Below, in pieces: positions 44,543 to 53,102 of a stretch of 64,000 bases of DNA (positions within the stretch are counted from its first letter, which is position 1; the number at the start of each line of letters is the position of its first letter). Made by a program: the position numbers and the translations under genes. The notes under the pieces were generated by a model. The model searched no databases and was not told where the DNA came from. It saw only the letters and a program-made list of their open reading frames with translations. The DNA is from Tepidanaerobacter acetatoxydans Re1 (GTDB lineage: Bacteria; Bacillota; Thermosediminibacteria; Thermosediminibacterales; Tepidanaerobacteraceae): NCBI RefSeq assembly GCF_000328765.2, contig NC_019954.2, positions 748,501-812,500 of the forward strand. Direction: 5' to 3'.

Positions 44543-44592
44543 AAAAACAGTTTTATTGATTAATGCCGTATTTAAAAGGGGAGGGACATAAG

Positions 44593-48422: not shown

Positions 48423-48641
48423 CTACTTTAACTTTTTTGATATAGACTCAATAATAAATATGATTGCATCATTAGGGCTTGGTATTTTCACCTTCATAAT
48501 CTGCAAAAGGCTCAAGACAAAACCAATAGCAAGAAGTACAAAAAAGGCTGTAAGTTCTCTCCAAAGTTTCTTTTGGATGAGACTTGGAACTTCTAAAAAT
48601 ATTATTAATAATACAAGTAAGATAATCAGACCATATTCCAT
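48423..48641 (-). CDS. Small two-helix membrane protein, candidate germinant-receptor D subunit
   Basis: About 72 residues contain two hydrophobic segments (YGLIILLVLLIIFL and LTAFFVLLAIGFVLSLLQI) joined by a short charged loop. It is the last gene of the gerA-gerB-gerC operon, 21 bases after gerC. Bacillus species have small two-helix 'D subunit' proteins of about 75 residues encoded in or beside ger operons, which modulate receptor function; size, topology and place all agree. Sequence similarity could not be checked. AAAGGAT fits ATG 48641 better than ATG 48647. Confidence 0.7.
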   Translation of the reverse strand: MEYGLIILLVLLIIFLEVPSLIQKKLWRELTAFFVLLAIGFVLSLLQIMKVKIPSPNDAIIFIIESISKKLK

Positions 48642-48662
48642 AGCCATATCCTTTCTAACGCC

Positions 48663-49829
48663 TTATCTCACCTTGCTGGGTGCTGTAGAAACGCCGGCAG
48701 TTCTAAGCTTTGCGTCAACTTTGACCTGTATGTCGACTTTAGGGAACTCCTCTCGCCATTTCCCCTTAAGCTCTTTCCACTCTTTCGGATACTTTCGATG
48801 TATTGCTTCACCAAATCCGAAAATATCGGTTCCCCACTCCTTTTGAGCTTTATCTAAAACGGCATTTATTTCGTTTTTTATTACCTGCGCCTTTCGCTTT
48901 TCCAGTTCCTTGAAAGTCTCCACATTAGTCAGCTGCACATTCGACATTTGTTCCGCCAAGTTGCCTTCCTCATGTATTTCAACGGTAATTGTTATTTTAC
49001 CGTCTCGAATTTCAGGAGTTATTTTGCTGCCGGCTCTTATTATTTCAAGTGCAACATCTTTGTTTTCTTCTTTTGGCGATTTTACAACGATAATGCCGCT
49101 GCCTACTTTGCCCAAGACCCAGTTAAGACCGCGAGTTTCAGGGCGATCCAGCCACCCTACCAGCTTGTCTTTTTTAAATACAGCGGCACCAGTAACACAC
49201 ATTTTTTTATCACTTTGCTTACCATCACCTATCAATTCAATGCGGCATGCTACAGGGTCCACGCCGGGAGTTGAAAGACATTTTGCAAAATCATTGAGAT
49301 TGACCTGAACGGCTGTTGAGGTGGCACTACTGGCTTTTATCATACCCCTAATAGCTTTTGCCGGAATATTTTCTTGTTCATGCTTGGCTTTTATAATATC
49401 ACTAGCCTCGCCCTTTGCTATTAACAACCAACTTAACCGCCTTGGTTCGGGATCCTTAAGAAAAAAATCCAAGAACGGAGCTATACCCGATTTTGCTACC
49501 TCCTCTCCGATTACAATAACCTTATTTTCAGGGAAAAATAATTTGCGGTCTGTTTGCATTGTGGCATTTCTGGCGGCATCAAAGATGGTGTATCCGGTAG
49601 ATGACAAAGTCCAAACACCTTTTTGCTCACCTGAGCTTGAAGAACCAGAAGTCTTTAATGCACTGGGTTTCATTATCTGAAAGGTAGTCTGTATTTTTTC
49701 TTCAGTTTTTGATTTATCAATACCTACTGCTGTTACAATCGATATAGCATCCAGCTCACGACGATTCCAGCAGCCGTTTAAAGTCACGAGCAAAATAACT
49801 GCAAGACAGACTATAAAGCACTTTTTCAT
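48663..49829 (-). CDS. gerC: Germinant receptor C subunit, Ger(x)C lipoprotein
   Basis: The 388-residue protein has a lipoprotein signal (MKKCFIVCLAVILLVTLNGC, lipobox LNGC) then NRRELDAISIVTAVGIDKS, the hallmark opening of Ger(x)C proteins, and a C-terminal domain with 'EINAVLDKAQKEWGTDIFGFGEAIHRKYPKEW'. GerC sits on the outer face of the spore inner membrane and forms the receptor with the A and B subunits. It overlaps gerB by four bases. The nutrient sensed cannot be predicted. Confidence 0.95.
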   Translation of the reverse strand: MKKCFIVCLAVILLVTLNGCWNRRELDAISIVTAVGIDKSKTEEKIQTTFQIMKPSALKTSGSSSSGEQKGVWTLSSTGYTIFDAARNATMQTDRKLFFPENKVIVIGEEVAKSGIAPFLDFFLKDPEPRRLSWLLIAKGEASDIIKAKHEQENIPAKAIRGMIKASSATSTAVQVNLNDFAKCLSTPGVDPVACRIELIGDGKQSDKKMCVTGAAVFKKDKLVGWLDRPETRGLNWVLGKVGSGIIVVKSPKEENKDVALEIIRAGSKITPEIRDGKITITVEIHEEGNLAEQMSNVQLTNVETFKELEKRKAQVIKNEINAVLDKAQKEWGTDIFGFGEAIHRKYPKEWKELKGKWREEFPKVDIQVKVDAKLRTAGVSTAPSKVR

Positions 49830-50923
49830 CTTGAATCTGCTCCTTTTTTACGAATTACTGCTGCCAGAAGCAAAAAGGATGGTAAAATTACCGTAAAAAA
49901 CAGTACATACCAGGTATATACCTTGTATGACAGGAATTTATTAAGAGCAACCATATTCTCGGATTGCAAAATGGAAAGACTTACAATTATGATTCCCATA
50001 GGCAGTAATATGGGCCGATAGTCTTGTAACTTAAGAAACTGAGCCGTTCCTAAAACTGCAAGATAATAATGAATTGATGCATGAACAAACATGCCTGAAA
50101 TCCATATGGCAACAAAAAGCACATCTATTCTTTCCAGAAAATCCCCTACACTTATAAGCTGTACTGCATAGAAAAACGGGAAATCGATGATTTTAGCCTG
50201 TTCAACTCCGAAAACACCTGCAGTTAATAACACAATAATGCAAAAATAGAAGGAGAGTATTATTAAGCCGATAATCAAATAATTTTTTAATTTTCCAGGT
50301 ATATTTATGTAAGGTATCAACATGGGTATGGCCAATATCATTCCGGTTCTGGAAGATATAACAAAAGCACCGTATATGACAGGAGCAATACCGTCTTCTA
50401 AAACAGGCAAGATACATCTTAAGTCAAAAACCTTTACTAATAGTGCCATAATTAAAAGGACAGAAAAAAGTATTACAGGAAGTGCAATTTGTGCAATACG
50501 GCAAATAGTTTCAATCCCGTTTTTGACCGCATATGCGGCAAACAAAGCAGTTAAGCCTATAAAAACCAGAATGGGGGTTTCCGGATATAAAATCGCTGTA
50601 AAAAATTCCCCGAATTCCCTCAAGATTGTTGCAGTTCGGTGTATAAAAAACCAGACAAATAAAGCCGATACTAATTTTCCCGCGGGACCAAGAATTACTT
50701 CGGCCGATTGAACAGCGGACATATTCCTGAAGCGCTTTGCCAAAAAATAGGCCGGAAGCATAAGAAGTATATGCATTGGCGCTGATAAAAGAGCGGATAA
50801 CCATAAGTCCTGATTAAACGGCGGAGCTTTAAAATAAGAAAGATAGGTCATAGTAAGCATCAGCCGGCTGAGAACAAAAGCGCATATAAACTGCAGATTG
50901 GATATTTTTCCGTCTTCTAACAT
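49826..50923 (-). CDS. gerB: Germinant receptor B subunit, spore permease
   Basis: The protein is 365 residues, the usual GerAB length, with about ten membrane helices. It opens KISNLQFICAFVLSRLMLTM and belongs to the amino-acid/polyamine transporter-like GerAB family, which binds the germinant. The frame extends to 50950, but ATG 50923 has GAGGAA seven bases upstream and gives the standard N-terminus. It starts ten bases after gerA and overlaps gerC by four bases. Confidence 0.94.
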   Translation of the reverse strand: MLEDGKISNLQFICAFVLSRLMLTMTYLSYFKAPPFNQDLWLSALLSAPMHILLMLPAYFLAKRFRNMSAVQSAEVILGPAGKLVSALFVWFFIHRTATILREFGEFFTAILYPETPILVFIGLTALFAAYAVKNGIETICRIAQIALPVILFSVLLIMALLVKVFDLRCILPVLEDGIAPVIYGAFVISSRTGMILAIPMLIPYINIPGKLKNYLIIGLIILSFYFCIIVLLTAGVFGVEQAKIIDFPFFYAVQLISVGDFLERIDVLFVAIWISGMFVHASIHYYLAVLGTAQFLKLQDYRPILLPMGIIIVSLSILQSENMVALNKFLSYKVYTWYVLFFTVILPSFLLLAAVIRKKGADSR

Positions 50924-50933
50924 ATAACATTCC

Positions 50934-52544
50934 TCATTTATTATCATCATCCTTATTTGGTTCAGGGATTAGATTATATTTTTGCCTTACTAGATTTTTC
51001 CAACCGATCACACGCGGTCTTGTATGCATAGCCCACCATGGAGCTCGTATAAAGACATCTTTCATATCTTGTGTGGATATGGGGGCAATTGGAGAAAGAT
51101 ACGGTACGCCGAAGGAACGCATAGCGGCCAAGTGTGTTAAAAACCCTGCGGCACCTATCATTATTCCGAACATCCCAAGTGAGCCGGCTAAAATCATATA
51201 AAAAAATCGCATGATCGTTGTAGTATCATTGATAGATGAAACTACGAAAGCTGAAACAGCAGTAACAGAGATAACGATGACCATTGGTGCACCTACGAGG
51301 CCTGCCGAAACAGCCGCTTCTCCCACAACAAGGGCTCCCACAATACTTACGGCTTGGCCGACGGGCCTTGGCAGCCGCACGCCAGCTTCTTTTAAGATTT
51401 CATATATGATATTCATAATCATGGCTTCTATAAAAGCAGGAAAAGGAGTCCCTTCTTTAGATGCGGCCATATTTATGAGTAAGGTCGGCGGAAGCATTTC
51501 CTGATGAAAAGTTGTTAGAGCTATGTAAGCCGCCGGAGCAAATTCGGATATAAAAAATGCTATATACCTTAATGTTCTTAAAAAAGAAGCGTAATAAGGC
51601 CGCGAGTAATAGTCTTCACTGCTTTGAAAGGCCTCGACAAAAAGGTATGGGACTGTGAGCACAAAAGGAGTGCCATCAGTTAATATGGCTACTCGCCCTT
51701 CCAGCATCTTCGCAGCAACCATATCAGGTTTTTCACTGTTTCCCACTGTAGGCAGAAAAGAAAGGGGATTATCCTCGATGTATTCTTCAATATAGCCTGA
51801 TTCAAGTATAGAGTCGGTATCAATTCGAGACAGCCTTCTTTTTACTTCTTCAACAATTTTATCATTGGCAATACCTTTTATATAAGCTATTATCACATCG
51901 GTTTGGGTTTGCCTTCCTATTTTCATGCTTTCGAATTTCAGGTTAGGGCTTTTAATTCTCCTGCGCAGCAAAGCGGTATTTGTCCTCAATGTTTCAGTAA
52001 AACCCTCGCGCGACCCTCGGACAACGACTTCGGTATCCGGTGCTTCGATACTGCGCGCTTCCCAACCGCGGCTGCCTGCAATCAGAGCAGTCGATGAGCC
52101 GTCTAAAAACAATACCGTATCTCCGGACAAGACTGCATTAACAGCATCCTGCAGGCAATTTATTTCATTAACTTCACTAATAGATAAAATCCGTTCTTTT
52201 ATTATAGTTAAAGCATTTTTTTTATTAAATTTACAGCCCACAGTAGTCGGATTGATGTCTACCATCAAAGGTTTCATCAGGCTTAATTGCACTATTTCTC
52301 TGTCAACAAGGCCGTCTATGTAAACTATAAATGCACCTATTTTTACATCTGAACCTACTTCAAACCGGCGAATCACTGCATCACTGGAATTAGCAAAAAT
52401 GTCTTGCATTTTTTCAAAATTAACTTTGATATCTTTGGATAAAGGTTCACCCTTTTTGTCCGGGATATCTTGATCGGATTCGGATTGTTGATTTGAACTT
52501 GAATGCACTAAAGTTCTATGCAGTTTCTTCATCCAACTGAACAT
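50934..52544 (-). CDS. gerA: Germinant receptor A subunit
   Basis: The 536-residue protein has the GerA layout: a cytoplasmic N-domain (about 1-270, with 'VKIGAFIVYIDGLVDREIV' and 'GSREGFTETLRTNTALLRRRI'), then about five membrane helices with 'LPRPVGQAVSIVGALVVGEAAV', and a short tail. GerA forms the core oligomer of the receptor. ATG 52544 lies exactly at the end of a duplicated block; its GGAG ribosome site is supplied by the duplicated gerA coding sequence itself (CCGGAGATACGGTA), not by the original leader. An N-terminal extension to 52562 would read that same junction. Confidence 0.92.
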   Translation of the reverse strand: MFSWMKKLHRTLVHSSSNQQSESDQDIPDKKGEPLSKDIKVNFEKMQDIFANSSDAVIRRFEVGSDVKIGAFIVYIDGLVDREIVQLSLMKPLMVDINPTTVGCKFNKKNALTIIKERILSISEVNEINCLQDAVNAVLSGDTVLFLDGSSTALIAGSRGWEARSIEAPDTEVVVRGSREGFTETLRTNTALLRRRIKSPNLKFESMKIGRQTQTDVIIAYIKGIANDKIVEEVKRRLSRIDTDSILESGYIEEYIEDNPLSFLPTVGNSEKPDMVAAKMLEGRVAILTDGTPFVLTVPYLFVEAFQSSEDYYSRPYYASFLRTLRYIAFFISEFAPAAYIALTTFHQEMLPPTLLINMAASKEGTPFPAFIEAMIMNIIYEILKEAGVRLPRPVGQAVSIVGALVVGEAAVSAGLVGAPMVIVISVTAVSAFVVSSINDTTTIMRFFYMILAGSLGMFGIMIGAAGFLTHLAAMRSFGVPYLSPIAPISTQDMKDVFIRAPWWAMHTRPRVIGWKNLVRQKYNLIPEPNKDDDNK

Positions 52545-52977
52545 TACCGTATCTCCGGACAAGACTGCATTAACAGCATCCTGCAGGCAATTTATTTCAT
52601 TAACTTCACTAATAGATAAAATCCGTTCTTTTATTATAGTTAAAGCATTTTTTTTAATTAAATTTACAGCCCACAGTAGTCGGATTGATGTCTACCATCA
52701 AAGGTTTCATCAGGCTTAATTGCACTATTTCTCTGTCAACAAGGCCGTCTATGTAAACTATAAATGCACCTATTTTTACATCTGAACCTACTTCAAACCG
52801 GCGAATCACTGCATCACTGGAATTAGCAAAAATGTCTTGCATTTTTTCAAAATTAACTTTGATATCTTTGGATAAAGGTTCACCCTTTTTGTCCGGGATA
52901 TCTTGATCGGATTCGGATTGTTGATTTGAACTTGAATGCACTAAAGTTCTATGCAGTTTCTTCATCCAACTGAACAT
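52113..52977 (-). repeat. Tandem duplication of the first 144 codons of gerA
   Basis: Positions 52113-52544 (432 bases) and 52545-52977 (433 bases) are a head-to-tail repeat that I find identical on reading apart from one extra base in the upstream copy, next to a T8/A8 run at about 52655-52660. The unit is 144 codons, so without the extra base the two would read through in frame. The right ends coincide with the ATG codon in both copies. Confidence 0.92.
52545..52977 (-). pseudogene. Broken upstream copy of the gerA 5' end
   Basis: From ATG 52977 the frame repeats gerA exactly (MFSWMKKLHRTLVHSS...) for 107 residues. An extra T on the coding strand then turns AAT-AAA into AAT-TAA, ending at 52654 with ...VGCKFN. 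The remaining 109 bases still match gerA but are out of frame. The copy carries the original leader, with only a weak GGGG ribosome site, and probably the operon promoter. The fragment holds only part of the N-domain and no membrane helix, so activity is unlikely. Confidence 0.88.
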
Positions 52978-53008: not shown

Positions 53009-53037
53009 CAATATGACAAATAAAAACATATTTATGC
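53009..53037 (-). promoter_or_regulatory. Candidate sigma-G (forespore) promoter of the ger operon
   Basis: On the minus strand GCATA (53033-53037) and CATATTG (53009-53015) are 17 bases apart, close to the forespore consensus (GHATR, about 18 bases, CATNNTA) with the last -10 base off. It lies about 30 bases before the first gerA ATG. Ger operons are normally sigma-G dependent. Confidence 0.5.
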
Positions 53038-53102
53038 TTAGTATTTACTAATGAGGTCTGAATATACACGATACAGGAATAAAAAGCAATTTAAAAACCA
53101 GG

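Follow-up and report, generated by a model that had tools for sequence, protein, structure and literature searches.

A near-perfect tandem repeat at the start of the sole gerA gene of Tepidanaerobacter acetatoxydans Re1

The gerA operon and its repeated start

The closest described systems for the gene content of this locus are the GerA-type receptor operons (gerA-gerB-gerC), which it resembles in that its A, B, and C genes are complete, ordered, and overlap at their ends. T. acetatoxydans is described as spore forming (PMC3587937), and a SpoIVA gene was found in the genome. In the window, i.e., the whole 64-kb stretch of DNA that was analysed, at positions 748501-812500 of a single 2,761,252-base contig, the two genes following gerA encode the B and C subunits (PF03845; PF25198/PF05504). 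The GerA domain covers positions 2-465 of the 466 in PF03323, and the N-domain of the A subunit has its match in 6O59, a GerK3A structure, and a weaker one in 9PRB (GerIA). Per genome searches, gerA is the sole full GerA-family gene, i.e., the only receptor A gene, and gerB the only PF03845-type match. The operon is laid out as follows:

50934..52544, minus strand: complete gerA, 536 aa (PF03323, E 2.4e-190; genome search)
49826..50950, minus strand: gerB, spore germination permease, overlapping the end of gerA (PF03845)
48663..49829, minus strand: gerC subunit, overlapping the end of gerB (PF25198, PF05504)

Just past gerC, a 74-aa ORF (window 48423-48647) retrieved no Pfam or NCBIfam match and possibly encodes a fourth, small subunit in this receptor operon.

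The difference from such operons is that gerA is preceded here by a second, truncated version of its first 144 codons. The elements of this repeat are:

52113..52544, minus strand: downstream copy, 432 nt, corresponding to codons 1-144 of the complete gerA (copy comparison)
52545..52977, minus strand: upstream copy of the gerA 5' end, 433 nt, with an extra T and an early stop (copy comparison)
52654..52977, minus strand: truncated GerA ORF, 107 codons (ORF call; Pfam GerA match)

The 432-nt block at 52113-52544 abuts the 433-nt copy at 52545-52977 head to tail, and the sole difference between the two is one extra base, with zero substitutions. TRF scored the repeat at 1724 (2.0 copies, 99% matches) and found no second tandem array comparable to it in the 64-kb window. 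A near-perfect 432-base tandem duplication at the gerA start had been claimed in a preliminary description made from the sequence alone, and both the copy comparison and TRF bear this out. Because gerA is read from the minus strand, the broken copy is the upstream one and the full gene comes after it. An ATG is the exact first codon of both copies (at 52977 and 52544), which confirms the further claim of an in-frame, 144-codon unit with both copies meeting the ATG, and the downstream ORF is complete. In the upstream copy, reading ends after 107 codons at a TAA (52656-52654); the Pfam GerA match in this ORF, at residues 45-94, is weak yet above the cut-off.

A recent duplication or a product of assembly

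As an event, the repeat is most readily compared to spontaneous short tandem duplications by illegitimate recombination, which it resembles in being head-to-tail, near-identical, a few hundred bases long, and flanked by imperfect short breakpoint homology. It differs from them in that the breakpoint falls exactly at the start codon, where it would create a new ribosome site, and in that the upstream copy is frameshifted. The breakpoints have an imperfect GTWWTGTT in common (6/8), and a 4-base run so close to the breakpoint is expected in ~4% of random pairs; the breakpoint itself is without flush microhomology, which counts against a real duplication.

In the nearest relative, Tepidanaerobacter sp. 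EBM-38 (98% GerA protein identity), there is one intact copy and no extra base. The remaining GerA-carrying genomes searched, from the same family and order, yielded a single N-terminal match per gerA, and a tandem scan of 60 related loci found no doubling of this kind in other gerA genes. Between the unit and EBM-38 there are 7 differing sites, every one of which is common to both copies, and since no differences separate the copies at such sites, the doubling postdates the species split. The abutting near-identical copies and the single-copy relatives thus support the earlier suggestion of a recent event. A rough 95% bound on its age is ~0.2-0.4 of the split time, a figure behind which gene conversion between the copies could mask a greater age. 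Codons 105-106, adjoining the indel site, read AAA TTT in both copies (52224-52235 and 52657-52668) where EBM-38 has GAA CTT; no other amino-acid changes separate the unit from EBM-38. Over gerA as a whole, the first 432 bases have diverged less from EBM-38 (7/432 sites) than the remainder (46/1176; p = 0.026). We calculated dN as 0.010 and dS as 0.12 since the split (dN/dS ~0.08); judging from these rates, the gene is under purifying selection. A same-genus genome (G001), of 2.4 Mb in 9 contigs, gave no match to any of GerA, GerC, and SpoIVA, while the present genome and a further one (G002) have all three; the G001 lineage may have lost sporulation.

We infer that the duplication is real and recent, and that it repeated the first 432 bases of gerA head to tail while leaving GerA intact beside a truncated 107-aa upstream ORF; we would give this reading a probability of roughly 0.55. 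The observations behind it are the structure itself, the single copy in the relative, the intact downstream ORF, and the in silico ribosome-site pairing described below. Its origin would lie in illegitimate recombination or template slippage.

Two abutting near-identical copies with a one-base, homopolymer-type difference are also what contig-overlap duplications in merged drafts look like, and the history of this genome fits that comparison. The final draft of Re1 (HF563609; 2,761,252 bases) was obtained by joining 96 scaffolds, with Mauve, to a mapping draft that had been made with MIRA against NC_015519 (PMC4374699). HF563609 rests on Ion Torrent reads assembled with Newbler 2.8, and the mean read of ~173 b that we computed from the published figures is too short to span or resolve a 432-base unit. 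The window sequence probably derives from this merged draft, and a single-base indel next to a T8 run is a typical Ion Torrent error. The chromosome might accordingly hold a single gerA start, as EBM-38 does, with two overlapping pieces (a contig from Newbler and fill mapped with MIRA, or the ends of two contigs) concatenated instead of merged and an Ion Torrent error in one of them accounting for the one-base difference; near-identity broken by one base beside a homopolymer would suit two drafts of one sequence. Assembly error had been mentioned before as an alternative, and the published assembly method makes it concrete. We uphold it as a serious rival, quite possible though short of probable.

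Several points weigh against it. Our duplication scan covered 1.104 Mb (40%) of this genome, sampled in stretches, and detected no other near-identical tandem duplication of 90-5000 bases, two CRISPR-like arrays aside, although ~38 of the 96 joins would be expected in that 1.1 Mb; a further 0.95 Mb from other genomes and 0.61 Mb of GerA loci contained no near-identical tandem duplication either. The authors of the draft report merging overlapping scaffolds (PMC4374699), and an overlap of 432 bases at 99.8% identity is easily spotted. Furthermore, the sequence analysed may instead be the JGI record NC_015519, should that record be equally long. Because the reads cannot span the unit, there are two possible origins for the copies: the JGI reference, which would make them probably real, or the merging step. 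In ~23.7 kb aligned to EBM-38, the extra base in gerA is the only indel in a coding frame, a count that rests on ORF calls: one of them contains a 2-base indel, at 44576, but probably has its true start further in. General sequencing noise was rejected as an explanation for this region, as no other coding indel occurs in that alignment. The clean surroundings and the rarity of merge duplications moderately favour a real event. Reads crossing the string GGAGATACGGTAATGTTCAG would support the duplication; if it proved to be an artefact, a public reference genome would be wrong at this point and gerA annotation would be misled. The two CRISPR-like arrays have a period of ~66-70 bases and lie at contig positions ~131274-132366 and ~237245-239503 (L107:11274-12366 and L108:17245-19503).

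The extra base, slippage, and collapse of the copies

Phase-variable homopolymer genes offer another comparison, as here too a frameshift adjoins an 8-base A/T run. In contrast to such genes, in which the frame follows the length of the tract, the tract here is constant and lies behind the stop, and its slippage cannot restore the frame. The site in question is:

52656..52660, minus strand: extra-base site, TT for T, giving an AAT TAA stop; adjoins the A8 run but lies outside it (copy comparison)

The intact copy reads TGT AAA TTT AAT AAA AAA AAT, i.e., AAT-AAAAAAAAT with no extra T (AA-T-A8), and the broken copy reads TGT AAA TTT AAT TAA AAA AAA (AA-TT-A8). The inserted base is therefore the second T of a TT pair, and the run is equally long in both copies. 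An extra base beside the T8 run had been held to cause the stop; a stop is indeed made and the run is adjacent, but the base belongs to the TT pair and not to the homopolymer.

From this base, the preliminary description derived a reversible switch of germination, in which slippage at the homopolymer would turn the gene on and off or fuse the two frames. The extra base does directly adjoin the A8/T8 run, and without it the 144-codon frame continues into the full GerA. However, the TAA lies 5' of an A8 that is unchanged between the copies, so gain or loss of an A leaves the stop in place and reopening by slippage fails. Deleting a single T from the pair would join the two frames, yet this is an ordinary one-base mutation. 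Further against a switch, GerA has its own start and can in principle begin downstream in either state, no relative carries a similar doubling, and a canonical in-frame -1 slippery heptamer is absent from the sequence as read by eye. The string AAATTTA was found, but its frame does not suit a slippery heptamer, and canonical -1 ribosomal frameshifting was rejected.

The fusion had also been described as a receptor subunit with a doubled N-domain, which the position of the block contradicts. Its boundary falls between residues 144 and 145, inside LSGDT-VLFLDG (LxGDTxLFxDG), the best-conserved part of this stretch and the most conserved motif of N1, and alignment to GerIA places the block end in this subdomain, ahead of the N1-N2 linker (356-372; PMC13170314). 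Since the block ends inside this motif of N1 and is no domain unit, a clean N-domain doubling was rejected; by this alignment, a fusion protein would carry an incomplete N1. The feature was thus well seen and its mechanism over-read: it is most likely not a genetic switch, and we give the slippage version hardly any credence.

The copies could also resolve in one direction, with homologous recombination between them restoring a single gene and possibly varying germination between spores. The geometry would allow it, as the first difference lies at offset 321 and is followed by 112 identical bases: a crossover ahead of the indel (321 bases) would give an intact gerA, and one behind it (112 bases) a broken gene, so that about one quarter of collapses would be gerA-null in a genome with only one receptor A gene. 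Collapse is, however, expected of any tandem repeat, nothing indicates its use, and it presupposes that the duplication is real; we consider it very unlikely as the meaning of the repeat. It is just as improbable that the duplication serves as a standing source of spore heterogeneity, with a clone steadily yielding slow- or non-germinating spores.

The junction as a probable start for the full gene

If the duplication is real, as we favour, the full gene would begin where the two copies meet:

52542..52556, minus strand: junction, GGAGATACGGTA followed by ATG, copy-1 coding sequence as putative ribosome site for the full gene

The junction, GGAGATACGGTA and its ATG, occurs once in the whole genome, and the ATG is preceded by GGAG. 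The computed anti-SD pairing is -6.6 kcal/mol at the junction start vs -5.9 kcal/mol at the original start, so the claim that coding sequence of the upstream copy serves as a ribosome site holds up as serviceable in silico. The pairing computed for gerB itself is weak (-2.3), and because gerB also overlaps the end of gerA, it probably depends on gerA translation.

Under the duplication reading, the original promoter would drive transcription through the upstream copy, a 107-codon dead-end ORF, into the full gerA, which would be started at the junction ATG from the GGAG at the end of that copy. The extra base would end upstream translation ~110 nt short of the real start and prevent a 680-aa fusion, and the stop may favour starting or restarting of ribosomes at the junction. 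As ribosomes would leave ~110 nt before the junction start, the frameshift in the upstream copy could be neutral or compensatory. GerA, along with the products of the overlapping gerB and gerC, would thus still be producible. A real event would illustrate how the breakpoint of a duplication can supply the only germinant receptor A gene with a new translation start, and how that gene may benefit rather than suffer from a frameshift in its upstream copy.

Small indels relative to EBM-38 also occur upstream of gerA (window 53025-53062), namely a 2-base gain at 53025 and a 2-base loss at 53062, the latter changing the distance between the two elements of a possible sigma-G-like promoter (TGTATA, 17, AATACTA).
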